This document shows, in pieces, positions 3,891 to 18,630 of a DNA stretch of 22,365 bases. Positions within the stretch are counted from its first letter, which is position 1. Every line of letters begins with the position of its first letter. Location of the stretch: the IMG/VR virus record IMGVR_UViG_3300037481_000061, positions 1-22,365 of that record. One strand, given 5' to 3'. The translations under genes were made by a program, and so were the position numbers. Under the pieces are notes generated by a model. The model was not told where the DNA came from. It searched no databases and saw only the letters and a program-made list of their open reading frames with translations. The DNA is from a virus.

Positions 3891-6590
3891 TTACCCTCCA
3901 ATCTCCACTTCAGTTGTTACCCCGGTCACCATCAGTGGCAGTGGCTTGTCCTGCTTCACCATGATGCTCCCGTCTGTGTGCCAGTAAGGCTTCGTCATAA
4001 CGGAGGTTTCCTCAGACGCAAGGGCGGATGTTGTCGCATATGGCAGACCTAGCACCAGCTTGTCACTGGTAGGCCCGACCTTCCACCCTGCGCTGCGCAC
4101 GACGCGGAGCCATACGTTGTTGACGTTCTTTGGCCTGCCTTGGCCGTAACCTGAAGCGTCTCGCCTGGGAGTGTCGATAGCCATCGGCAACGTGACGAGG
4201 TATGCCTCGTAGGGAATACCGCACGAGATGACCTTGCCGATCGTGACAGCCTCGTCCAGCGTGACCACGCCTGAGCCGTTGGCAGCGCGGTTGACTTGCA
4301 CCTCGCCATCCACGAGCAGCGACACGGTTGTGCTCGGAAGGTGCGCTACGGTGACGGTCGTTACAGTGCCGCCAGTGGTCGCCTGATCCCCGCAATCGAC
4401 GAAGTAGGCATCCTCATCGTTGTCGAAGTTGAACGTCCCCAGACGCTCCACGAACTTCTTGGTCGAGCCGTTGATGGTGCGCTGGGCGATGACGTAGACG
4501 CGGTCCTCGTCACCTTCAGGGATCACGCACACCGACTTGACGCCGTCCCCGAACGTGTGCTGGTGCCAGCCGCCGATGTTCTGCTCTGGCACGTAGGTCA
4601 GGCCAAGCAACACGCCGTCGCTGCGGACAGCCCACAGGATCGGCACAGGAGCCTTCTGGTAGGCAATCTGCTTGATGGTGTAGCCGTCGAACAGGTCGTT
4701 CGCGAAGATGCTCAGGTCGCCAGTGACGTAGCCCTGCGACTGCCAGTTGAACCCAAGCTCTCGCATGTGCCCGCCACGGTTGGCGCAGAACAGCAGCGAG
4801 TTGTTCACGACGATCGGCTGCACGTTACTCGCACCGACGAAGCTCTGCGGGCGGACGCTGACGCTCGACGGCGTGATCGCGTCCGAGTTGACGGCAGACA
4901 CGCGCCACTCCGACTCGTTGGTCAGCAGCAACAGTTCACCTAGCGGGACGATGTGGCGGATAGTGGCGTTTTCGCGGGCGACAACGTCGAACTTGATGCG
5001 GTCAGTGTCCTGACTCGGCAGCGAGTATGACAGGTCAGACTCAGTGTTTGACCGTGTCATCCAAATGGTCTGGGCGTCGTTATTAGTGCCAGCAAAGCAT
5101 CGACGCTGCTCGAAGTAGGAGACGGCACCTGGGTAGTCATCCACCGCAGCGAATTCGCCAGCATCTCGGATCGGAGGCGTCCGCCCCATGTCTGGAGCGA
5201 TGTTGTCATCGACGAAGCTCGTGGTCTCGGTCTGGCCGATGTAGCCGAACAGTCCGCTCTGCTTCTTGTAGACGTAGTAGCGTTCTGCGCCAGTGACAGC
5301 AGCCCACGATACGGTGTTGTATGCGCCAGTCGAGGTCAAGATGTTGAGTACTGACGCCTCGCTGCTCGGATCAGATTCTTGCAAGTCGCTGGTGGCAGCC
5401 GTGACCTTGTAGTAGTTGGTCGTGTCGGCACTCTGTTCAGCAAACAACATCTTCCCGCTGTTAGCGGTATAGGCATTGGTGTATGCCAAGTCAACAATGC
5501 CGGTGCTGACAGGGGCAAGGCGAACGCTTGTTACGGTTCGGTTGTAGACGATGTAGAAGCCGTTTGGCAGATCGGTCGTGCCAAGGACTCCGTAGACGTA
5601 TACCTGATCGCCATTGGAAAACGGCATTTCAGCTCCAGCAGCTGCGAATCCGTTCAAGGTCAACGTCCCGGTGCCGAGGGCGATAGCACTGATCACGTAT
5701 TGCTCTGCGAATGTCGCAGTAGCCGTGACGCTACCAGGAGCAGCTAGTAACGCTTCAAACGTCACTGCAACTAGCGTCCAGCCATTCACACCAGTGCGCC
5801 GTAGTTCTCTGGTTTGGTAACCTACATGCGTGATCGTCATCACGTCGTAACTCTGGACGTAGTGGAGGTCGTAGAGGTCGGCTTGAGCATATGGAGACGG
5901 GATCTCAAAGACCGTCCCAGTCATTGCATACCACGGTGGGTTCGACCCTAGTGCGGTGCTGTCGTTTTGAGCAGTGCAGTAGTGGTAGGTTCCAGCATTC
6001 GAGACCACATCGCCGAGGCTGTATCGACGCTTGCCAGTCATCGTGCCTGAGCCGTCAGTGGTGAAATTGATAGGAGTGCCACCTACGGTAGTGGCAATTT
6101 GAAACGTCCCCGCGGCTGGATTTACAACGTAGTAGACTGTGTCGAATACAAGGCCGGTTGGGACAACAGCACCGCCTCCATTGCTGAACAAGAATGGCTC
6201 ACCAGCCGCCAACCCGTGCGCTGCCCAGTTAACTACATCAGTGCCGCTGGTAAACGTGACAGTAGCTGCCGACCTGTAGTCCGTGTACACCGACACCGAA
6301 AGAGGAGCGCCGTCTGTGTGAAACCTGATGTATGTGTTGCCGAACTCCAGCACGAGCGACTGGTCGTTGCCGTACTTGAACGGGAGCAGCACTGCCGTCT
6401 GCGCGCTGTTCTTCTGCTCGGCGGCGAACTGCGACCCAGGGCGGCGACGGGCCGGCCCCTGCGGCAGCGTCACCATGTTGACGACAGTCTTGAGCCCAGT
6501 CTGGTTCTGCGGCAGCTCCAGCCGCGAATACATCTCTGGGCTGATCTGCCCACCGGCAAACGAGCGGTAATACGTGCGCGTCTGCACCAT
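3891..6590 (-). CDS. Tail tubular protein B, gp12-like, multi-module (899 aa)
   Basis: The ATG at 6590 (MVQTRTYYRSFAGGQISPEM) is 2 nt after the TGA of tail tube A; the open frame extends further upstream but would overlap tube A and reads as non-protein-like. The opening, with the 'FAGGQISPEMYSR' and 'NMVTLPQGPARRRPGSQF' stretches, is typical of podoviral tube B proteins. Residues ~110-187 hold a beta module with HGL...F...PTGL...YYV signature. Residues ~290-375 resemble the FCCH-type beta module common in phage proteins (DQVYVYGVLGTTDLPNGFYIV). Residues ~388-468 look like a fibronectin type III domain (TVSWAAVTGAERYYVYKK). From ~490 the conserved tube B core resumes (SYFEQRRCFAGTNNDAQTIW, SEWRV, NRGGHMREL). 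It forms the nozzle end of the short tail. At 899 residues it is longer than T7 gp12 (about 790), explained by the inserted modules. Confidence 0.9.
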   Translation of the reverse strand: MVQTRTYYRSFAGGQISPEMYSRLELPQNQTGLKTVVNMVTLPQGPARRRPGSQFAAEQKNSAQTAVLLPFKYGNDQSLVLEFGNTYIRFHTDGAPLSVSVYTDYRSAATVTFTSGTDVVNWAAHGLAAGEPFLFSNGGGAVVPTGLVFDTVYYVVNPAAGTFQIATTVGGTPINFTTDGSGTMTGKRRYSLGDVVSNAGTYHYCTAQNDSTALGSNPPWYAMTGTVFEIPSPYAQADLYDLHYVQSYDVMTITHVGYQTRELRRTGVNGWTLVAVTFEALLAAPGSVTATATFAEQYVISAIALGTGTLTLNGFAAAGAEMPFSNGDQVYVYGVLGTTDLPNGFYIVYNRTVTSVRLAPVSTGIVDLAYTNAYTANSGKMLFAEQSADTTNYYKVTAATSDLQESDPSSEASVLNILTSTGAYNTVSWAAVTGAERYYVYKKQSGLFGYIGQTETTSFVDDNIAPDMGRTPPIRDAGEFAAVDDYPGAVSYFEQRRCFAGTNNDAQTIWMTRSNTESDLSYSLPSQDTDRIKFDVVARENATIRHIVPLGELLLLTNESEWRVSAVNSDAITPSSVSVRPQSFVGASNVQPIVVNNSLLFCANRGGHMRELGFNWQSQGYVTGDLSIFANDLFDGYTIKQIAYQKAPVPILWAVRSDGVLLGLTYVPEQNIGGWHQHTFGDGVKSVCVIPEGDEDRVYVIAQRTINGSTKKFVERLGTFNFDNDEDAYFVDCGDQATTGGTVTTVTVAHLPSTTVSLLVDGEVQVNRAANGSGVVTLDEAVTIGKVISCGIPYEAYLVTLPMAIDTPRRDASGYGQGRPKNVNNVWLRVVRSAGWKVGPTSDKLVLGLPYATTSALASEETSVMTKPYWHTDGSIMVKQDKPLPLMVTGVTTEVEIGG

Positions 6591-6592
6591 GT

Positions 6593-7582
6593 TCAGCGGT
6601 CCCGCAGGTAGGTGGGAGTCGGATCTTGGATGATGCGCCTGTCGAGCGAGTCGGAGGTCGTGCTCTTGCCCATGTAGTACGCCATCGTCTGCAAGCACCG
6701 CTTGGACTCGTCGGAGCCCTGCTTGCCCTTGATGATTGGCCCGGCCAGGAGCGAGGCGAGGTGCCACGCGAGCGCCAGCACGAACGTGCTCGGGAACATG
6801 CGCGTGAACTGAACGTGCATCGTGTAGCGCAGCACGGCTTCGTCCTGGTCAGTAAACAGGCGCAGCACACCGTCCGTGTCCTGCTCGATCGAATACTCCT
6901 GCGCGTCCTTGTGGTCATCGCTAGCGCCAGTCGGCAGCACGGCGAGCACCTTGAGGAAGTCGTGCGGGATCATGTAGCAGTAGTCCCACGCGTCCCGGTC
7001 ACACTCGTGCGCAGTCAGCGCGACCGTGTTCGTCGCGAACGACCACGAGTGCATCTCCAGCACAGTGCTCAACGCAATCGGGTAGAACTGCGCGCAGAGC
7101 ATCGCTTCAGTAGAAGGGTCTGGCGGGTTCACGCTCTGCACAACCGCTGCGTTGCCAAGGAACGACAGTGCCATGTTGCAGATCTCGACTTGCGTCGGTG
7201 GCATACAGCCGCAGATGTCCTCGACGAACGTGATGTTGCCTTGGATGATCGTGCGCTCGACGAGAACGTCGATGCTGATGATCTCGTAGTAGTAGCTGCC
7301 TACCTCGACATCAGCCTGTAGGCTGCTGAGAGCGAACTCGACTACGCCACCAGTCGCGTCGGTGACCGTGCCGACAACGATCTCTGGGTCCTCGACCGTG
7401 ACTGCCTCGTGGTCGTGACCACCAGCACCACCTGGGGTCGCCCAGATATACATCTCGAAGTTGAGCCCGGTGATATCGACGATCGTCCAGTCCGATCCAC
7501 GGATCGTGAACGTGAACGGCTCGATGTCGCCTTGCTGGATGTAGATGTCTACCGGGGTCGGGCAGAGGTTGAGGTTGCTCAT
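6593..7582 (-). CDS. Tail tubular protein A, gp11-like, with extra N-terminal beta domain (329 aa)
   Basis: The ATG at 7582 overlaps the stop of the oxidase-like gene as ATGA, so I prefer it to an upstream in-frame start. Residues ~130-329 are the gp11-type adaptor: EICNMALSFLGNAAV, then STEAMLCAQFYPIALSTVLE and a helical C-terminus (ALAWHLASLLAGPIIKGKQG). Residues ~1-125 are a separate beta domain beginning PVDIYIQQGDIEPFTFTIRG, resembling N-terminal domains of BppU-type phage upper-baseplate proteins; the joint is the Cys-rich DICGCMPPTQVE. T7 gp11 is about 196 residues, so the extra domain accounts for the added length. The protein sits between portal and tube B in the virion. The added domain may hold a tail fibre or a decoration protein; that is inference. 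Confidence 0.85.
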   Translation of the reverse strand: MSNLNLCPTPVDIYIQQGDIEPFTFTIRGSDWTIVDITGLNFEMYIWATPGGAGGHDHEAVTVEDPEIVVGTVTDATGGVVEFALSSLQADVEVGSYYYEIISIDVLVERTIIQGNITFVEDICGCMPPTQVEICNMALSFLGNAAVVQSVNPPDPSTEAMLCAQFYPIALSTVLEMHSWSFATNTVALTAHECDRDAWDYCYMIPHDFLKVLAVLPTGASDDHKDAQEYSIEQDTDGVLRLFTDQDEAVLRYTMHVQFTRMFPSTFVLALAWHLASLLAGPIIKGKQGSDESKRCLQTMAYYMGKSTTSDSLDRRIIQDPTPTYLRDR

Positions 7583-9615
7583 GTGAACTTCACCCACAGG
7601 GATTCGGCGGGGACGCCTTGGTCAGTCAAGATCCACAAGAGGTGGTAACCCTTCTGCCACGCCTGCTCGTTGGCCGGGGTCGTGAACCGCAAGGTGACGG
7701 AGTCAACTTCAGTGACAGCGAGCGTGCGATGCTTGCTGGAGTTGGAGTAGTGATGCGTCACGCTGCCACACGGCGTCAGCGCAGCCATCGTCAATTTGCG
7801 ATACTGCGGGAGCGCATCGCAGACGATCTGGTATTCGTTCGCGGAGGTGAGAGTGTAGGTGCCGTCAGCATCCGCTGTCACCGCACCAACACCGACTTCG
7901 GTCAGCACGAGGTTGGTCGGGCGCGTTGGCCGATACGTGGACCCGTTTTGCGGCAACAGGTAGTGCGGCTCAAACACCTCGTAGTCGTATCCGCCATCGT
8001 GACGGCGACCTTCGCCGCCACCGCAGAACAACCGACCGTCAGGAAGCAGCACAACCGTCTGGTGGTAGCCACGAATCGACAGCGCGCGGTTCCAGTCGAT
8101 GGCAACCCACTTGTCAGCACCTGGGCGCAGAAGCTCCGCAGCCGTGTGATACTTGAAGTCCTCGTCGATGTGGACGCTGCCATGCACTTGGAACTCGTGC
8201 GGCACAGGCGGCTCGCTATCAGGTTGCCAGTCCATGCCGCCGAGAGCGATGATGCTGCCGTCAGGAAGCACGACGGTGTTCAGCATCTGCCGCACCAACT
8301 TCATGTCGGGCGCTGGTGCCCACTGCTCGGTCCCGCCAGCGGTTGGGTAGATCACTTCCACGCTGTTCGTGTCGAACTCGCGGTCTGTCACTCCATCCCA
8401 ATCCACAAACGGCGGGATCTGAGCGCCACCCATGCGGTAGATGACATCCGCGTGCCCTTGGAAGTTCTGCAACTGAACCGCGCTACCGTAGTAGCGGAAC
8501 TCGTCAAGGTTGCCGGTGATGCCGAGGTCGTGGCCGCGCGCCGTAGACCAGCTGCCTGGACCACCACTGTGGTCGGTCAGCGTTGCACTCTGCGGGACCA
8601 TGCCAGCCATGAACATGTCGCCAGCAGTGAGCGTGAACATGCGCGGGTAGAAGTAGAGCGAGTCCATGAAAGGCTCGTTCGCACCGACGTTCATGGGACC
8701 GTTCCATACGTCGGTCCCTGCGATGTCATCCTTGACGAGACCACTGGTGGTGGTAGTTGGAGCCGCGTCGATGACGTAGGACTCGTAGGTGTTCCACGTA
8801 GAGTTGTTCGCGAACGTCTGGTTCGCAAGCAACAGGTCATCGCTGCCGCCAGTGATGAGCGCATGAACCTTGCTTGTGCGGCCAAGCGTCGGCGTCATGT
8901 CCACGCCTGGGTAATAGCGACCTTCCACGCCGCCCGCGCTGCTCAAGCTCTCTGCTTGAACCCACGCACCCTTCTGCGCCGTGTAGTGCCCGCCGGTCAG
9001 CGTCAGGTCCAGCGTGCCAACGCCAGCGTCGTTCGTCAGATGCACCGTCATCGACAAGCTAGGTGCCCAGATGAACACCTTGTTGTCGGGATACTGGTTG
9101 ATTGCCAAGTCCCAGCGCATCCCGCCAGCGATCAGCAAGTCGCCGTTGGGCGTCCATGCGTGACCGGCGCAGAACAGGTTCGGGATGCGGATGGTGGCAG
9201 GAGTTCCGATGGAACCTTCCACGATGCCGACAGGGAACAGGTGGTTGCTGAAGCGCACTCCAGCAGGCTCATCAGCAGGGTCCACGATCGCCCACGCTTG
9301 GAACGACCATAGGTCGGTCGCGTGAACGGTCGGCGCTACCGCAAGCACGGGCGCGTTGTCCCACACCACGACCTTGCCCTTGTTCGGTCCCTTCGGGATG
9401 AGGGACATGTGGATCGCGTTGAACGTCTCGGGGAACACGTAACCAGGAAGGTAGGTGATCCCTGGGAACGCAACGTCAGCAACCGTCTCCTCGCGATCGT
9501 GGTTGTATGCCTTCGTCCAGGCACCAAACTGAGAAGTCAACCCGCTGATGTTGAGGTCAGCGCGGTTGACTTTGGCTGGGAAGTTCCGCCCGTTGAGTGC
9601 TACGTCGTAGTTCAT
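7579..9615 (-). CDS. Galactose/glyoxal-oxidase-like radical copper oxidase, phage accessory (678 aa)
   Basis: Kelch-type beta-propeller repeats are clear: TPNGDLLIAGG (~155-165), RTSKVHALITGGS (~246), LNTVVLPDGSIIALGGM (~445-461), RGYHQTVVLLPDGRLFCGGG (~515-534). The C-terminal ~565-678 is the immunoglobulin-like DUF1929 domain ending in GYHLLWILTDQGVPAESLWV, as in galactose oxidase. Putative copper and cofactor residues can be placed: Cys149 with Tyr235 (RYYP, the Cys-Tyr cross-link pair), Tyr517-His518 (RGYH) and His621 (SVTH). Known family members oxidise a primary alcohol or aldehyde and release H2O2. There is no signal peptide; it lies between head and tail genes, so it may be a virion protein. 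It begins next to a perfect inverted repeat with a weak ribosome site. Family call is strong; activity is inferred from residue placement by eye. Confidence 0.88.
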   Translation of the reverse strand: MNYDVALNGRNFPAKVNRADLNISGLTSQFGAWTKAYNHDREETVADVAFPGITYLPGYVFPETFNAIHMSLIPKGPNKGKVVVWDNAPVLAVAPTVHATDLWSFQAWAIVDPADEPAGVRFSNHLFPVGIVEGSIGTPATIRIPNLFCAGHAWTPNGDLLIAGGMRWDLAINQYPDNKVFIWAPSLSMTVHLTNDAGVGTLDLTLTGGHYTAQKGAWVQAESLSSAGGVEGRYYPGVDMTPTLGRTSKVHALITGGSDDLLLANQTFANNSTWNTYESYVIDAAPTTTTSGLVKDDIAGTDVWNGPMNVGANEPFMDSLYFYPRMFTLTAGDMFMAGMVPQSATLTDHSGGPGSWSTARGHDLGITGNLDEFRYYGSAVQLQNFQGHADVIYRMGGAQIPPFVDWDGVTDREFDTNSVEVIYPTAGGTEQWAPAPDMKLVRQMLNTVVLPDGSIIALGGMDWQPDSEPPVPHEFQVHGSVHIDEDFKYHTAAELLRPGADKWVAIDWNRALSIRGYHQTVVLLPDGRLFCGGGEGRRHDGGYDYEVFEPHYLLPQNGSTYRPTRPTNLVLTEVGVGAVTADADGTYTLTSANEYQIVCDALPQYRKLTMAALTPCGSVTHHYSNSSKHRTLAVTEVDSVTLRFTTPANEQAWQKGYHLLWILTDQGVPAESLWVKFT

Positions 9616-9655
9616 CGCTTGCTCGCCGTCGCAGCCGACACATGCCGAGCAAGCG
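9616..9655 (-). repeat. 10-bp perfect inverted repeat abutting the oxidase start codon
   Basis: CGCTTGCTCG at 9616-9625 is the exact reverse complement of CGAGCAAGCG at 9646-9655; the 20-nt loop contains a further 4-bp GTCG/CGAC pair. In the minus-strand RNA the 3' arm ends at the base just before the ATG at 9615 and takes in the only weak Shine-Dalgarno-like bases (GGCGAG). No U-run follows, so it is not a classical terminator. It could control translation or RNA stability, or be the edge of an inserted gene. Confidence 0.8.
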
Positions 9656-9657
9656 AC

Positions 9658-9870
9658 TTACTGCGGGTTCTTTCGCGGACGCCCAGGACCACGCTTCACG
9701 GCCACCTGTGGTTGTTCAGGCAAAGGAGCCTGCTCCTCTTCTTCCTCGACAGCGACCTCATCCACCGGCTTGAGCCATCGGCATTGGACACTGCCACGGT
9801 AGTCGAACTCTTCTCCTTCTTGACGAAGGCAGTTATCGACGAAACAGACTTCCTTTGCGAGAACTCTCAT
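9658..9870 (-). CDS. Small virion-cluster protein with basic GRPRK tail (70 aa)
   Basis: The ATG at 9870 follows the stop of the upstream cement gene by one base; the longer open frame would overlap that gene almost entirely. The protein starts MRVLAKEVCFVDNCLRQEGE and continues with W-L-KPVDE, an acidic Glu5 run, a Pro/Gln segment and a C-terminal KRGPGRPRKNPQ. The tail matches the AT-hook type core (GRP flanked by basic residues) that can bind the minor groove of DNA. Small proteins with this 'R..GE.F....W..P.D' layout and a basic end are often found just after cement genes in podoviral head clusters; their role is not established. It may bind DNA in the capsid or be an assembly factor. Confidence 0.7.
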   Translation of the reverse strand: MRVLAKEVCFVDNCLRQEGEEFDYRGSVQCRWLKPVDEVAVEEEEEQAPLPEQPQVAVKRGPGRPRKNPQ

Positions 9871-9871
9871 G

Positions 9872-10435
9872 TCAGATGATCGAGAACCCGCTGCGGTAGG
9901 ACTTGTTCTGGCCGACCTTGGTGCCATCTGGCAGCGTGTAACCGCCAATACCAGGGTGCAGCGTGATGTCGAAGTCGAACGCGCCAGCGGTGACGTTGCC
10001 TGGAGTGACACCGTCGATCCCTGAGACGCACTCGACCCAGCCGTAGACATACTGGAGACCAGTGATGCCGTTGGAAGGGTCAGCCACCGGTTCAGCCGAA
10101 GCAGCGGTCAGCGGGTTGATCACCATGGTGATCTGAGTGCCAGCCGTCAGCGCCGTACCGGTGTAGAGACCGGTCTGAGCAAGTGTCGGTTGCGAGTAAT
10201 GCACGAGGACAGGCGTCTCAGGAGTGGCGTCAGTGCTCAACTTGAGCGACCAACGCACAGCGAGACCAGCGCCAACCGTTGCACTGGTCCTGATCGTGAT
10301 GACGGCATAGAGCGGTTGCCCCATGCCGATATCACGAAGCAGCGACAAGTCGAAGTAGTTGGTGGTCACCGCACTGAGCGGTGACGCAACCAACGTCTGG
10401 TTGTCTGACAGCTTGAGGAATGCGTCGGGAATCAT
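9872..10435 (-). CDS. Bbp16-like capsid cement protein, short copy (187 aa)
   Basis: A beta-rich protein whose opening (FLKLSDNQTLVASPLSAVTT, then NYFDLSLLRDIGMGQPLYAV) parallels the next gene upstream: SD.QTL, TTNY.D, RD...G..LYA. Both follow the major capsid gene, as do Bbp16-type cement or decoration proteins in BPP-1-like podoviruses. GAGG with a short spacer precedes the ATG at 10435 and overlaps the stop of its paralogue. The C-terminus is HPGIGGYTLPDGTKVGQNKS. No inserted module is present in this copy. The paralogy is visible; the cement role is family inference. Confidence 0.75.
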   Translation of the reverse strand: MIPDAFLKLSDNQTLVASPLSAVTTNYFDLSLLRDIGMGQPLYAVITIRTSATVGAGLAVRWSLKLSTDATPETPVLVHYSQPTLAQTGLYTGTALTAGTQITMVINPLTAASAEPVADPSNGITGLQYVYGWVECVSGIDGVTPGNVTAGAFDFDITLHPGIGGYTLPDGTKVGQNKSYRSGFSII

Positions 10436-10443
10436 GTGCCTCC

Positions 10444-11190
10444 TCAGGAGATGGTGACGCCGCTCGGGTAGAACTTCAGCCCGTCCGGTTCGCCTTCCAC
10501 GAGTTCAACGCGGAACTCGACAGCCGCGATGGTCCCAGTGACCACGTAGCGCCCGAACATGTAGCGGAAGTTCGGGAGCGAGACCACCCGCTGAGAGTCG
10601 ATGCTATGAAGCATCGGATGGTTCAGGCGGATCGCAATCTGCGACCCAACCGTGAGCATCGTCGGAGCGAGGTTGCCAGAAGTCCCCAGGATCTGCGGGA
10701 TGACCGTTGCCGTCATGGCCGTTGCGTCAACCGAGATCGTGACATCAGGAGCCCCGGCAAGAGCCAGCGCAGGGGTCGTGGCGAGGCGGAAACCGTTGGC
10801 GGTCAGCGCAGCGCCAGCCGCGACGTAGTATGGGCGGCTTGCCGTCAAGCCCGTGCCGCCAGTGAGCGCCGTGAAGACCACGGGCGTCCCGGCAGGGAGA
10901 CCGTGAGCCGTCCAAGTCACGATCTCGTCATCTGCTTCCATGGTCGGAGCCGTGGAAGCGAGACCGGCGAGCGTCGTGACCGGGAGCGAGACAACTTGAA
11001 GCTCAAGCTGCCCAGCGTTCGTTGCCGTAGCCGCGACCTCGACGGTGAACAGCGCATACAGGTTCTTGCCACGGGCAAGATCGCGAAGCGCGGTGGTCGC
11101 GTCGATGTAGTTGGTGGTGAGAGCCGTCGCCGAGATCGCGCTGCCGAGAGCAGCCGAGTCAAGCACGAGGTTGTTGTCCAGGTAGGTCAT
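10444..11190 (-). CDS. Bbp16-like capsid cement protein with inserted HGL beta module (248 aa)
   Basis: Residues 1-75 (MTYLDNNLVLDSAALGSAIS, then TTNYIDATTALRDLARGKNL) and ~167-248 (MLTVGSQIAIRLNHP, FRYMFGRYVVTGT) form the cement fold shared with the downstream paralogue. Residues ~82-166 are an extra module: VTWTAHGLPAGTPVVF, GLTASRPYYVAAGA, FRLATTPALALAG. The same module type occurs in tail tube B (residues ~110-187). The gene has the strong ribosome site AAGGAGGA upstream of its ATG at 11190 and follows the major capsid gene by 18 nt. It probably coats the capsid at local symmetry axes; the added module would project outward. Function inferred from family and position. Confidence 0.78.
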   Translation of the reverse strand: MTYLDNNLVLDSAALGSAISATALTTNYIDATTALRDLARGKNLYALFTVEVAATATNAGQLELQVVSLPVTTLAGLASTAPTMEADDEIVTWTAHGLPAGTPVVFTALTGGTGLTASRPYYVAAGAALTANGFRLATTPALALAGAPDVTISVDATAMTATVIPQILGTSGNLAPTMLTVGSQIAIRLNHPMLHSIDSQRVVSLPNFRYMFGRYVVTGTIAAVEFRVELVEGEPDGLKFYPSGVTIS

Positions 11191-11195
11191 ATTGA

Positions 11196-11210
11196 GATCC
11201 TCCTTGGATC
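11196..11210 (-). promoter_or_regulatory. Small hairpin presenting the ribosome binding site of the cement gene
   Basis: In the minus-strand RNA GATCC (11210-11206) and GGATC (11200-11196) can pair around loop AAGGA. The Shine-Dalgarno AAGGAGGA is half in the loop and half in the stem. The stem is short, so it could tune rather than block translation between the capsid and cement genes. Confidence 0.4.
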
Positions 11211-12255
11211 AGGCGACCAGGGATTCGGTGTTGAGCAGGCTGTCCACGCAACGGAGCGGGATGCCCATGAACGTGCCCCACGAGATCGGGGTGCCGAACT
11301 GGCTCAGAGCCGTCTGGATCGAGAGGGTCGCCGCCGACTTCTCCAGAGCGAGACGCATGAGCGCCGAGTAGACCGTGCGGTTCATGTAGAACACCGGGCG
11401 ACCCATGCGCAGGTTCGGGACGCGGCAGACAGCCTTCGCCATCGTGTGCAGCATCGTGGTGTAGGCAGTCGGCAACTGCGAACTCGCGAGCGCCGCAGCC
11501 TCGCTGACATCGATGTTCGGGATGCGGACCGCGTATCGCCAGTCCTTGACCACGAGACCAGTCTTCCACTGGTAGCGAGTCACGAGAGCCTGCATACGGT
11601 CGGTGGACGAGGCCGAAGTCGCGGTCACCGTGGAAGGCGTGTAGACCGTCTGCTCGCCGAGATCCTCATGGATCAGGCCAGCCTTGCTGCCCTTCGGGAA
11701 CGGGCAGTAGACCGTCTGGTCACCCCACACGACGAGCCAGATGCTCGTGTTGTCGCTGCCGCTGCCGCCGCCGAGGACGATGTTCTGGCCGTTGCCAGCC
11801 GTGGTCAGCGAGTAGCGAGGAGCCAAGCCGAGAGGCTGCTTCGGGTCAGTGGCGGGGTTGCCGTAGAACAGCGTGCTCGCCATCGTCTGGTTCATGCTTT
11901 CGAGGAACGCGGTGTCCTCCGAGAGCCGGAACTGAGCGGTGTTGCCGTTCAGCATCGCGAGATCCTTGTCGATCTCCGAACGAGCTTCGAGGATGCCGCA
12001 AGCCTCATCGACCTGAGCGGTCGTGCTCTTGCTCGACGGGATGCCTTGGTTCAGCGCGCGCCAGTAGGCAGTCGGCAGGCCAGTGCGGATCACGACACGG
12101 TCGCCGGTCGGCAGATTGCCTTCCTTGAACACGCAGTCGGTGAGGATCTCGTTCGTTTGCGAAAGCAATTCCGCAACGACGGGAACGGTGCCATTCGGAT
12201 CGACACGCTTCGCCCAATCGGCGAGCGTAAGGTTGCTGGAACTCAGGGCTGCCAT
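11209..12255 (-). CDS. Major capsid protein (348 aa)
   Basis: A 348-residue protein directly after the scaffold gene and before the cement genes. It shows the layout of HK97-fold capsid proteins of BPP-1-like podoviruses: N-terminal ALSSSNLTLADWAKRVDPNG, then ELLSQTNEILTDCVFKEGNL, TGLPTAYWRALNQGIPSSKS, a helical spine segment (QVDEACGILEARSEIDKDLA) and a C-terminal P-domain (RMGRPVFYMNRTVYSALMRL; WGTFMGIPLRCVDSLL). LFYGNPATDPKQPLGLAPRY is a conserved capsid-type turn. It forms the icosahedral shell. A weak ribosome site (GAAG) lies upstream. No truncation or inserted domain seen. Confidence comes from sequence layout plus neighbours; no structure was compared. Confidence 0.9.
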   Translation of the reverse strand: MAALSSSNLTLADWAKRVDPNGTVPVVAELLSQTNEILTDCVFKEGNLPTGDRVVIRTGLPTAYWRALNQGIPSSKSTTAQVDEACGILEARSEIDKDLAMLNGNTAQFRLSEDTAFLESMNQTMASTLFYGNPATDPKQPLGLAPRYSLTTAGNGQNIVLGGGSGSDNTSIWLVVWGDQTVYCPFPKGSKAGLIHEDLGEQTVYTPSTVTATSASSTDRMQALVTRYQWKTGLVVKDWRYAVRIPNIDVSEAAALASSQLPTAYTTMLHTMAKAVCRVPNLRMGRPVFYMNRTVYSALMRLALEKSAATLSIQTALSQFGTPISWGTFMGIPLRCVDSLLNTESLVA

Positions 12256-13278: not shown

Positions 13279-13617
13279 CTGAGTTTTCAGTTCGCGAATG
13301 TGCTCAAGCATGACGCCAGCATCGGCGGCAACGAGCACCATAGCCTTCGCAACCTCTTCAGCATAAAGCTTGGCAGGTGCTGACCTGTTGTCTTGCAGTA
13401 TCAACTGCATCTTGCGCCACATGATGAAAGGCCAGCCGACAAGATCCTGCGCTTCTTGCTCAATCTCGGCAAACAGCGAAGGTGGAGGCAATTCGTAGCT
13501 TGCATCACCATACTCCTTGTGACCCTTTTTGAGCCGCTTCATTATCAGCTTCGCGGTGTCAGGATCGATGCCAGCCAACTGCATGAACTCTGGCGCGTGC
13601 TCTAGGTGACCGCTCAA
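13270..13617 (-). CDS. Small all-alpha protein, possibly MazG-like (115 aa)
   Basis: The frame has no good ATG near the end of the upstream gene. A TTG at 13617 overlaps its TGA and has GGAGG 8 nt upstream, so I take it as the start; an internal ATG at 13581 lacks a ribosome site. The protein contains LKKGHKEYGDASYELPPPSL then FAEIEQEAQDLVGWPFIMWR, a layout with an EIEQEAQD (ExxE/ExxD) cluster followed by helix, as in all-alpha NTP pyrophosphohydrolases (MazG/dUTPase-like), which use these acids to bind Mg. If true, it would hydrolyse nucleotides during infection. The metal-site motif is incomplete by eye (second ExxD helix not obvious), so the function is tentative. It could equally be a small structural protein. 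Confidence 0.55.
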   Translation of the reverse strand: MSGHLEHAPEFMQLAGIDPDTAKLIMKRLKKGHKEYGDASYELPPPSLFAEIEQEAQDLVGWPFIMWRKMQLILQDNRSAPAKLYAEEVAKAMVLVAADAGVMLEHIRELKTQFT

Positions 13618-15542
13618 CGAATCGCCCTCCACCTCGACTCGCTCGCGTTCTTCGGCGCACCCATGAACGTCACGACACGCTTGGCTTGGATGCCGACAGG
13701 AGTCTTCTCGTCGGCAAGCAAGACACACGCGGCGACCGTCCACGACGCAGCGGCGCTCGACACGTAGACATCGTCGGTCCAGCCTTCGTTGTCGCGGTTC
13801 AGCGCGGTAGGCCAACGCGGCGCATCGGGTGTCCAACGCAGCGCGTAGGCGTGCCAGTAGGCAGTGCCCACTTCCTTCCATCCTTGCTGCACGCAAGCGA
13901 TCGCAAGTGATCGACTCGCTGCCATGTAGCGAGGGTCCTTCGTGACCATCGCAGCGGCCCGGAACCCGCCGAGTTCGATGGCCTTCTGCCACGGTTGCCA
14001 GCCGTAGACCGGCCCGCTGCCGTCGCTCATCTGCCAGCCGTATTTGGCCTCTTCGATCGCAGGTTCTTGGCCCACCGGCCACTTACGAGCGGCAGCGTCG
14101 AGACCATCGCGCAGCGTTGCCTGTGCGTCGGCGAATCCGAGCCACAGTTGGTTGGCTCGCGTCAAGCCCAACCGACCGACAGCGCGAGGCGACGGCGGCG
14201 CGTCGTTCTTCAGATACCAGTCGGTCTGGTCGAGCTGGATGTGATCGGCAACGATCGCTTCCAACGCCGGGTCGCGGGTCAGCGCGAGGGTCGCGTGAAG
14301 CAGGTTGTCGGCTCTATGCTGATCGTCGCTCGTAGTCCAGAGAACCGTCGATGGTGCTGGAATCCAGCCGATCTGGTTGACACCCGGCCAGCCGAGGCGG
14401 TCCTCCGGTCCCCACCCAAGATCGGGCCGCTGGTTGATTGTCTCTGCCTTCGGATGCAAGCGTGCCTGCATCGGCGCACCACCGGGTTCGCGGTTGCCGG
14501 TCGGCCTCTGGGCGAACGACTGGCACTGCCATAGCGCGTCGTGGATCTCCCACGGCTCGTTGGTGACCACGGCGAGGTCGCTGGCCCATCCGAAATCAGG
14601 CTGCTCGCCGGTCGTGCCAGAAGTCTGCATCTGCGCACGAGGGCGAGACTGCGAATATGCCCCCCACTGCGGGTTCAGGTATGCGGCGCGCAACTGCGCG
14701 CGGAACGGCACCATGTCCGCCGTCTGCGCGGGGATCTGGCCGAGGGCCATCCACGAGCCCTGCCAGCCGGTGTAGAGCCCCTGCATGGGCCTTGCTTGCT
14801 CGCGAACCTCGTCGGGCATGGCAAGGATAGCCCCCCTCGTCTCAAAGCGACTGGCGCGGTGCCAGCGCGTTCCTGCGGCCACGAGCGTGAGCGTCCACTT
14901 TGGCCCTGCGCTCCAGCTTGCCAGCGAACCACCGTTGCGCTGCACGAAGTCAGGGTGCAACTTCGCGGCACTCACCATCGACAACTCAGAGAACGTCGCC
15001 ACCTGGGCTTGACCGTCGTTTGACGTGGTCCCGTAGACGGCGTGGGTCACGAACTCGACCACAGGCGAGCCGCTCAAAACGGTGGCCCAGCAATCGACCG
15101 TCACCTTCTTGGTGGGCCAGTGGGCGCGGATTCGCCATACCTGTGCCGCTGCGGAGGCACGGACTAGATCCAGCGTCGGAGGTGCTGGCGCTTCGTCGCC
15201 AAGGAAGAACGACGGTGCGATGGCGAGGAGGTTGCTGCTGATGGCAGGGTGAAACGCAAACGGCTCGGGTGTGCCGTCGGAATCGTTGGCGGTCAGGGAA
15301 ACAGTCTGCCCAGCAGCAAGCGACACCAGCACTCGGATGCCGCGCTCCTCGCGGACGTATGGAGCTTTGATGGTCTCGCTGTCCGTCAGGTAGCCAGCCT
15401 TGCGAGGAAGCAAGTGGGATGTGGGGATACCGACAAACACCCATGCCGTCTGACGTGCAGTCGCGAGGTTCTGGAAGATGATCTGTGACTTCTGCGCGAA
15501 GGCAGCGGCGACGAGAAGGAAGAAGGCTAGAATGGCTTTCAC
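13614..15542 (-). CDS. Exported 642-aa protein with Sec signal peptide, function unknown (possible carbohydrate-active)
   Basis: GTG at 15542 overlaps the previous stop (GTGA) and has AAGGA six bases upstream. Residues 1-16 are a Sec signal peptide: Lys2, a hydrophobic core and AFA before Gln17, a signal peptidase I site. Residues ~17-280 are beta-rich (FQNLATARQTAWVFVGIPTS; PLDLVR...; VTVDCWATVLSGSPVVEFVT). The C-terminal ~400-600 is helical with repeated Trp/Ala helices (NLLHATLALTRDPALEAIVA; AYWHAYALRWTPDAPRWPTA), like an alpha/alpha toroid. This beta-sandwich plus toroid layout occurs in exo-acting polysaccharide lyases and RIFT-type proteins; no catalytic motif was recognised. An exported protein inside a virion gene block is unusual; it could act on the host envelope or capsule from the periplasm. 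Confidence 0.72.
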   Translation of the reverse strand: MKAILAFFLLVAAAFAQKSQIIFQNLATARQTAWVFVGIPTSHLLPRKAGYLTDSETIKAPYVREERGIRVLVSLAAGQTVSLTANDSDGTPEPFAFHPAISSNLLAIAPSFFLGDEAPAPPTLDLVRASAAAQVWRIRAHWPTKKVTVDCWATVLSGSPVVEFVTHAVYGTTSNDGQAQVATFSELSMVSAAKLHPDFVQRNGGSLASWSAGPKWTLTLVAAGTRWHRASRFETRGAILAMPDEVREQARPMQGLYTGWQGSWMALGQIPAQTADMVPFRAQLRAAYLNPQWGAYSQSRPRAQMQTSGTTGEQPDFGWASDLAVVTNEPWEIHDALWQCQSFAQRPTGNREPGGAPMQARLHPKAETINQRPDLGWGPEDRLGWPGVNQIGWIPAPSTVLWTTSDDQHRADNLLHATLALTRDPALEAIVADHIQLDQTDWYLKNDAPPSPRAVGRLGLTRANQLWLGFADAQATLRDGLDAAARKWPVGQEPAIEEAKYGWQMSDGSGPVYGWQPWQKAIELGGFRAAAMVTKDPRYMAASRSLAIACVQQGWKEVGTAYWHAYALRWTPDAPRWPTALNRDNEGWTDDVYVSSAAASWTVAACVLLADEKTPVGIQAKRVVTFMGAPKNASESRWRAIR

Positions 15543-18180: not shown

Positions 18181-18630
18181 TCAGACCTCCCTCACCATCG
18201 CTCGCTCCATCGCCCGGTATCCGAGCTTCTGGAACAGCGACTTGTTGTCAGCCTGCGCGCCGTCCGTCATCAGGTCGGTCATGCAGATGAACTTCGCACC
18301 GTTGCGGATGCCCCACGCCTCGAACGACAACAGCAACTTCAAGCCGCTAGGTCCCGTTCGATGCTCTGGGTCAACCCACCACGCCAACTCGGTAGCGACC
18401 TGGACGGAAGGCGAGAACCAAAGCGAAGTCATCGCTCCTGCGCACATCCCGACCAGCTTGCCGTCTAGTTCCGCCGCGAACACCACGCCGCTTTCCAGCA
18501 CGTTGCTCAAGCCGTCGCGTATGTCACTATCCTTCACCGCCATCAACTCAGAGTGCGGAGAAGCCCGAAAGAACCGGCCACCCAAGGCAACCAGTTCGTC
18601 TAGGTCCGACTTTTCGGCTTGTCGGATCAC
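18181..18630 (-). CDS. GNAT-family N-acetyltransferase (149 aa)
   Basis: The fold is readable along the sequence: MIRQAEKSDLDELVALGGRF (beta1-alpha1), VVFAAELDGKLVGMCAGAM (beta2-beta3), ELAWWVDPEHRTGPSGLKLL (beta4 and acetyl-CoA motif A, with RTGPSG at 91-96 in place of the usual Q/RxxGxG/A), and SLFQKLGYRAMERAM (motif B, 131-145). GTG is the start at 18630. GNAT genes recur beside portal or terminase genes in podoviruses; their substrates are unknown, and acetylation of a virion or host protein is a guess. Length is normal for the family. The loop spacing in motif A is slightly altered, so acetyl-CoA binding is likely but unproven. Confidence 0.85.
   Translation of the reverse strand: MIRQAEKSDLDELVALGGRFFRASPHSELMAVKDSDIRDGLSNVLESGVVFAAELDGKLVGMCAGAMTSLWFSPSVQVATELAWWVDPEHRTGPSGLKLLLSFEAWGIRNGAKFICMTDLMTDGAQADNKSLFQKLGYRAMERAMVREV

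Follow-up and report, generated by a model that had tools for sequence, protein, structure and literature searches.

A gene in a phage tail operon that looks like a copper radical oxidase: viruses that may oxidise the surface sugars of their hosts

The tail enzymes known from phages act on surface glycans by hydrolysis or beta-elimination, cutting them or removing ester groups. The SGNH tail enzymes are established as receptor-binding enzymes that modify glycans rather than cutting them (PMC13123978). Outside the phages, the copper radical oxidases include galactose oxidase and the bacterial enzyme GlxA; apo-GlxA forms its cross-link on the addition of copper (PMC4736821) and a tryptophan in the second shell is critical in this enzyme (PMC13094651). 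Here we describe a gene whose product, P0001, is a homologue of these oxidases with an apparently intact active site. It lies in the virus contig IMGVR_UViG_3300037481_000061, all 22,365 bases of which were analysed (the window), among structural genes of BPP-1/epsilon15 type (terminase, portal, protease, major capsid, cement and tail tubular). The gene and the codons on which the assignment turns are as follows.

7579..9615, minus strand: copper radical oxidase homologue P0001, propeller and C-terminal E-set domain (Pfam, phmmer, profile, model)
9169..9171, minus strand: Cys149 codon, which would form the Cys-Tyr thioether; galactose oxidase (GalOx) C228, GlxA C121 (aligned to GlxA LFCTGH)
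8911..8913, minus strand: Tyr235 codon, thioether tyrosine; GalOx Y272 (aligned to GlxA RWYPTLT)
8914..8916, minus strand: Tyr234 codon, second-shell position; GlxA Trp288, Fusarium aldehyde oxidase Trp509 (PMC13094651)
8065..8067, minus strand: Tyr517 codon, axial tyrosine; GalOx Y495 (profile alignments)
8062..8064, minus strand: His518 codon, putative copper ligand; GalOx H496 (profile alignments)
7753..7755, minus strand: His621 codon, putative copper ligand; GalOx H581 (profile alignments)

P0001 is 678 amino acids long and its reading frame, on the minus strand, is open throughout. The initial annotation had proposed kinship with galactose and glyoxal oxidases over the propeller and DUF1929 domains, and this is borne out by Pfam, phmmer, profiles and the predicted structure. 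The Pfam family GO-like_E_set (PF09118, formerly DUF1929) is matched above its cut-off (E=9e-9); the propeller part scores under the Pfam cut-offs and is evident instead from phmmer, the profiles and the predicted structure. Galactose oxidase is found by phmmer at E=9e-14. A profile with phage and bacterial rows matched GlxA at E=1.7e-63, and a profile of the phage rows alone still matched copper radical oxidases (E about 1e-18 to 1e-20). An AlphaFold2 model generated with 17 related sequences as input (predicted local distance difference test score, pLDDT, 80; predicted template modelling score, pTM, 0.87) has a propeller followed by a C-terminal E-set/Ig-like domain, as do copper radical oxidases. 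When this model was compared with the PDB by Foldseek the first 27 chains were all copper radical oxidases (E 4.5e-27 to 8e-21), with the next match at E=5e-9; a comparison with predicted structures of viral proteins gave nothing beyond kelch-type and other weak matches. The ranking of PDB structures, together with comparison with the kelch protein of Pseudomonas phage D6, led to rejection of an ordinary kelch propeller of that kind.

The five residues expected of an active enzyme (C149, Y235, Y517, H518 and H621) are present where they had been annotated and align with those of GlxA and the galactose oxidases. All five are invariant in eight distinct phage proteins, of which the other seven share 33-64% identity with P0001. 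Some 18% of alignment columns do not vary among five of the phage proteins, which puts the probability that five preselected positions would all be invariant at about 2e-4. Cys149 and Tyr235 are, moreover, invariant in all 17 rows of the alignment A3. In the profile that includes bacterial rows, the motifs LFC-GH, RWYPT, YH and TH align with GlxA Cys121, Trp288-Tyr289, the YH pair and the last His; the assignments of W288 and C121 follow PMC4736821, PMC13094651 and the PDB entries of the W288A variant. The second-shell position is Tyr in P0001 (Tyr234) and in the related contig L010 and Trp in the other phage proteins, so that an aromatic residue is retained. In both P0001 and GlxA this residue immediately precedes the thioether tyrosine. 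The second-shell Trp of galactose oxidase comes from elsewhere, and the arrangement in P0001 is that of GlxA and the aldehyde oxidases (PMC13094651). A natural active-site variant was seen in a Planctomycetota metagenome-assembled genome, where L016, a paralogue of L015 from the same genome, reads RHH at the axial-tyrosine motif RYH.

Comparison of P0001 with its L010 counterpart gave a rate of non-synonymous substitution (dN) of 0.30 and of synonymous substitution (dS) of 0.92, which indicates purifying selection on the oxidase. The absence of a signal peptide, already remarked upon in the annotation, holds on inspection by eye, the N-terminus of P0001 being hydrophilic. Export by a signal peptide is usual, although not defining, for copper radical oxidases, and several bacterial relatives, L019-L023 among them, have N-termini that resemble signal peptides. 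The lack of one in P0001 would be expected for a virion protein set free by lysis.

The gene sits between head-cement and tail genes, as had been described, with Bbp16-like genes on one side and the gene for tail tubular protein A (TTPA) on the other. This position, in the structural module beside tail genes, is one expected of virion-associated receptor-binding or glycan enzymes. In the oxidase-positive podoviruses compared, the capsid gene is followed by between one and three genes for Bbp16-like cement proteins and then by those for the oxidase, TTPA and tail tubular protein B. Two features of the adjacent gene are important here.

6593..7597, minus strand: TTPA, T7 gp11 / BPP-1 Bbp14 type (phrog_394 at 135-332)
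7214..7582, minus strand: extra N-terminal TTPA domain (phrog_1084), a beta-sandwich by prediction, to which the oxidase is proposed to attach

The likely start of TTPA is the ATG at 7580-7582, which overlaps the oxidase stop codon (7579-7581) as ATGA. The extra domain comprises about 125 residues: in tblastn of TTPA against Bbp14 the match spans 130-334 only, and the domain is missing from BPP-1 Bbp14, Limnohabitans phage DC33 and phage ctEw122. The linkage between domain and oxidase was examined in 80 IMG/VR loci picked solely by similarity to the TTPA core, 16 of which were too short. Oxidase and extra domain occurred together in 2/80 and discordantly in 0/80, with neither present in 62/80. 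Among these 62, 51 encode a plain TTPA with at least 2.5 kb visible upstream and 11 encode some other large N-terminal TTPA fusion. TTPA likewise has the extra domain in the other oxidase-positive podovirus contigs. In a myovirus contig, L014, the oxidase gene is preceded by baseplate gp6-like and Tail_P2_I genes, and the gene that comes next after it encodes this domain at its start. It was also detected, with weak E-values, in proteins of other phages annotated as tail fibres. The model of TTPA is poor (pLDDT 55), its best Foldseek match in the PDB being 8ck1_E, a chain of the Carin1 podovirus tail/connector assembly; from this poor model, an Ig-like fold for the adaptor domain, with TP901-1-type baseplate chains among the matches, is only suggestive.

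Further evidence for a tail-associated role comes from a natural exchange of this region, for which the relevant features are given below.

6585..11196, minus strand: segment with decoration proteins, oxidase and TTPA; contig L121 has an unrelated or diverged segment in its place
11209..12255, minus strand: major capsid protein, GP7/Bbp17 family; bounds the exchanged segment on its upstream side

Over 11.2 kb, starting on the terminase side and reaching as far as the capsid gene, L121 and the window share 99.0% identity; past TTPA they share 86%. The borders of the exchange fall 12 bases past the capsid stop codon and 9 bases past that of TTPA. Between them, L121 has neither oxidase nor extra TTPA domain, and its TTPA carries instead a 519-aa N-terminal extension. 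A second pair of contigs, L010 and L011, share oxidase, TTPA and tail tubular protein B at 99.6-99.9% protein identity between diverged flanks (50% for the upstream cement gene, 61-79% for the downstream genes). Of the large TTPA fusions in oxidase-less loci, 10/11 have SASA carbohydrate esterase matches or GQSN/GESD motifs and 1/11 is beta-helix-like. Other candidate glycan-active domains are thus exchanged at this one site, as in L121, whose beta-helix was judged by eye, and in the SASA fusions. The TTPA N-terminus is a site to which candidate surface-glycan enzymes are repeatedly joined, a slot that the oxidase too appears to fill, by means of the adaptor domain. Fusions to SGNH/SASA-type domains of ~550-1170 aa were seen in L033, L037, L039, L047, L048-L050, L063, L086 and L092. 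TTPA with the 519-aa beta-helix-like extension, which belongs to no known family, is encoded at L035:3450-5615 and L121:15024-17189; the extension had no Pfam or PDB match.

Relatives of the oxidase were found in 11 IMG/VR contigs besides the window, all BPP-1-like podoviruses except for the myovirus L014. An initial viral scan with P0001 gave no relatives since only close-relative patterns were used; a motif pattern then detected them, and a further pattern, RWYPT...GG, yielded nothing. Among 50,697 phage records, tblastn with several queries and up to E=10 found nothing convincing in phage isolates. Three candidates from the motif scan (L003, L004 and L007) were chance matches. A secreted GlxA-like copper radical oxidase with a signal peptide (L008:8823-10367) was left out of the comparison, its IMG/VR contig of 107 kb being likely cellular sequence or a provirus flank. 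The cellular relatives belong to the Planctomycetota and Acidobacteriota. In the tree, five phage oxidases form one clade (support 100/99), drawn from genomes of 34-61% G+C. L014 encodes a 1208-aa protein that has the oxidase domain at its C-terminal end; ahead of this domain lies an extra N-terminal region of ~370 aa (L014:8777-9898). The N-terminus of this protein, MVNLNFNV, resembles those of the podovirus oxidases, MVERNVDI, and is possibly a virion-attachment peptide.

The reading that we favour, with a probability of roughly 0.6, is that P0001 is an exchangeable, tail-borne oxidase of surface glycans. The enzyme, which has no signal peptide, would be synthesised in the cytoplasm and would dock to the connector ring via the extra N-terminal domain of TTPA, as an exchangeable receptor-binding enzyme in the slot held elsewhere by SGNH esterase or apparent beta-helix domains. 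Once released to where oxygen and copper are present, the protein would form its Cys149-Tyr235 cofactor unaided; maturation with copper and oxygen after lysis would explain why neither a signal peptide nor a copper chaperone is needed. Its targets would be alcohol or aldehyde groups on a glycan of the host surface; by oxidising them, with hydrogen peroxide (H2O2) as co-product, it would recognise, open or modify the glycan layer during adsorption. Oxidation of surface sugars may in this way be how the virus attacks its host or takes hold of it. The sequences themselves show the family, the conserved first shell, the place of the gene, its link with the added TTPA domain and the exchange of the cassette. 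Presence in the virion, docking to TTPA, copper loading, activity and a glycan substrate are what we infer from them.

Several observations weigh against this interpretation. The model of P0001 superposes on galactose oxidase with a template modelling (TM) score of about 0.6, and Tyr234 in place of the second-shell Trp could weaken the radical chemistry. The oxidase-positive podoviruses are related to one another and the linkage counts are therefore not independent events, the myovirus L014 being the sole clearly separate case of linkage between oxidase and domain. Docking rests on genetics, the TTPA model being poor, and the L121 extension looks like a right-handed beta-helix as judged by eye only.

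The same substitution at Tyr234, of a residue important in GlxA, is what might be expected if P0001 were a tail-borne receptor-binding propeller that binds glycan and has lost catalysis, propellers being common binding domains. Such a protein would not be expected to keep five first-shell residues across eight sequences as divergent as those compared above, nor does loss of catalysis sit easily with purifying selection or with the intact-looking esterase motifs (GQSN, QGESD) that occupy this slot in relatives; we regard it as unlikely, while placing it ahead of the other alternatives. It is also established that every known active member of the family yields H2O2, and the activity profile of GlxA is aldehyde-oxidase-like (PMC13094651). 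The enzyme could accordingly be imagined as a virion-borne generator of peroxide, made from small environmental alcohols or aldehydes and directed at the host envelope or at competitors. Little peroxide would, however, come from a virion with between a few and a dozen copies on its tail, and a slot held in common with a glycan esterase fold and a beta-helix-like domain points to glycan instead. The evidence for peroxide release as the enzyme's purpose is no stronger than that for glycan modification, and we consider this explanation improbable.

The listing of GAOA/K04618 among auxiliary genes in a viral metatranscriptome (PMC9611531) raises a further alternative, that of an auxiliary metabolic gene whose product is no part of the particle and acts inside the host cell during infection or is set free when the cell lyses. 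This would be at odds with the lack of a signal peptide in a usually extracytoplasmic class of enzyme, with the placing of the gene inside a structural operon in two phage types, with its linkage to a tail-protein domain and with its joint exchange with decoration and tail genes, and we give it an equally low weight. The metagenomic origin of the contig, and the fact that the closest cellular homologues are from Planctomycetota, might suggest that the contig is cellular or chimeric and the oxidase gene a contaminant. Phage structural genes lie on both flanks, however, independent contigs show the same arrangement, with synteny in L010-L013 already refuting the idea, and the five phage proteins fall into their one clade with support of 100/99; contamination by a planctomycete gene was rejected by synteny and tree, and its likelihood is negligible. 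Taken together, the adaptor domain, the L121 exchange and the esterases in the same slot favour a tail-associated glycan enzyme.

The remaining neighbours of the oxidase gene are as follows.

9658..9870, minus strand: small acidic protein, where BPP-1 has Bbp15 (about 70 aa)
9872..10435, minus strand: Bbp16-like cement/decoration protein (PF21190, E=1.9e-8)
10444..11190, minus strand: second Bbp16-like protein (PF21190, E=3e-12)
3891..6767, minus strand: tail tubular protein B (phrog_376)

Tail tubular protein B of the window has 958 aa, against about 680 in BPP-1, with matches over residues 170-256 to PHROGs of tail fibre proteins or of unknown ones. An acetyltransferase-like protein (phrog_1249) is encoded at 18181-18630 on the minus strand, between the terminase and portal genes. 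After the portal gene, positions 13614-15542 (minus strand) encode a 642-aa protein with no Pfam, PHROG or PDB match, which is absent from BPP-1. Its N-terminus is signal-peptide-like in the window and L010 and not in L012/L013, and it is 90% identical to that of L010 although most other genes are about 50-63% identical. The idea that it is a co-occurring partner of the oxidase is not supported, since the oxidase-less L121 retains it at 99% identity.

In a literature search, in which coverage of subscription papers was limited, no report of an oxidase in a phage particle was found. If the proposal is true, phage tail enzymes would have their first oxidative class, next to the hydrolases, lyases and esterases. 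An oxidase in an exchangeable slot would bring redox chemistry to adsorption, with a need for copper and oxygen outside the cell, and a metal-dependent step in phage infection would become testable. As a wider proposition, it is conceivable, although we would put it at slightly under even odds, that some phages use a radical-metalloenzyme oxidase on the tail as a receptor-binding enzyme, one that is an inert apo-protein when made in the cytoplasm, gains its activity from copper and oxygen once the cell has lysed and oxidises a host surface glycan at adsorption.

Among known systems the best structural match is GlxA of Streptomyces lividans (PDB 4UNM, 5LXZ), a bacterial glyoxal-type enzyme (E=4.5e-27) that aligns at all five residues with an overall identity of about 16% and in which W288 corresponds to Tyr234. 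GlxA is a cell-surface enzyme of the hyphal tip working with the CslA glucan synthase, whereas the gene for P0001 lies in a phage tail operon. Galactose oxidase (AA5_2; PDB 1GOF) shares the propeller, the E-set domain and the five residues (E=5e-24, TM 0.58-0.61, about 17% identity), but its N-terminal carbohydrate-binding domain is unmatched in P0001 by Pfam and its second-shell Trp290, from another loop, is absent. The closest cellular relatives, the copper radical oxidases L015-L027 of Planctomycetota and Acidobacteriota, have the same motifs at 23-33% identity; these are known here from sequence, lie on cellular contigs and in several cases have signal-peptide-like N-termini. The 'galactose oxidase' of phage D6 (WDS62040) shares with P0001 its name and kelch-type repeats, but is a kelch-only protein of 311 aa (OQ363659, 16657-17592) without, by inspection, an E-set domain or the conserved catalytic motifs, and was not matched by tblastn. 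The tail region of Bordetella phage BPP-1 (Bbp17-16-15-14-13) has the same gene order and homologous neighbours; it has no oxidase, and its Bbp14 no extra N-terminal domain. The SGNH-esterase receptor-binding proteins (G7C gp63.1, Klebsiella prophage receptor-binding proteins; PMC13123978) are likewise glycan-modifying and not depolymerising, but are hydrolytic rather than oxidative. In relatives of the window these esterases are fused directly to TTPA, in contrast to the unusual modular logic seen here, in which the enzyme is a separate polypeptide and the connector protein has gained an added domain.

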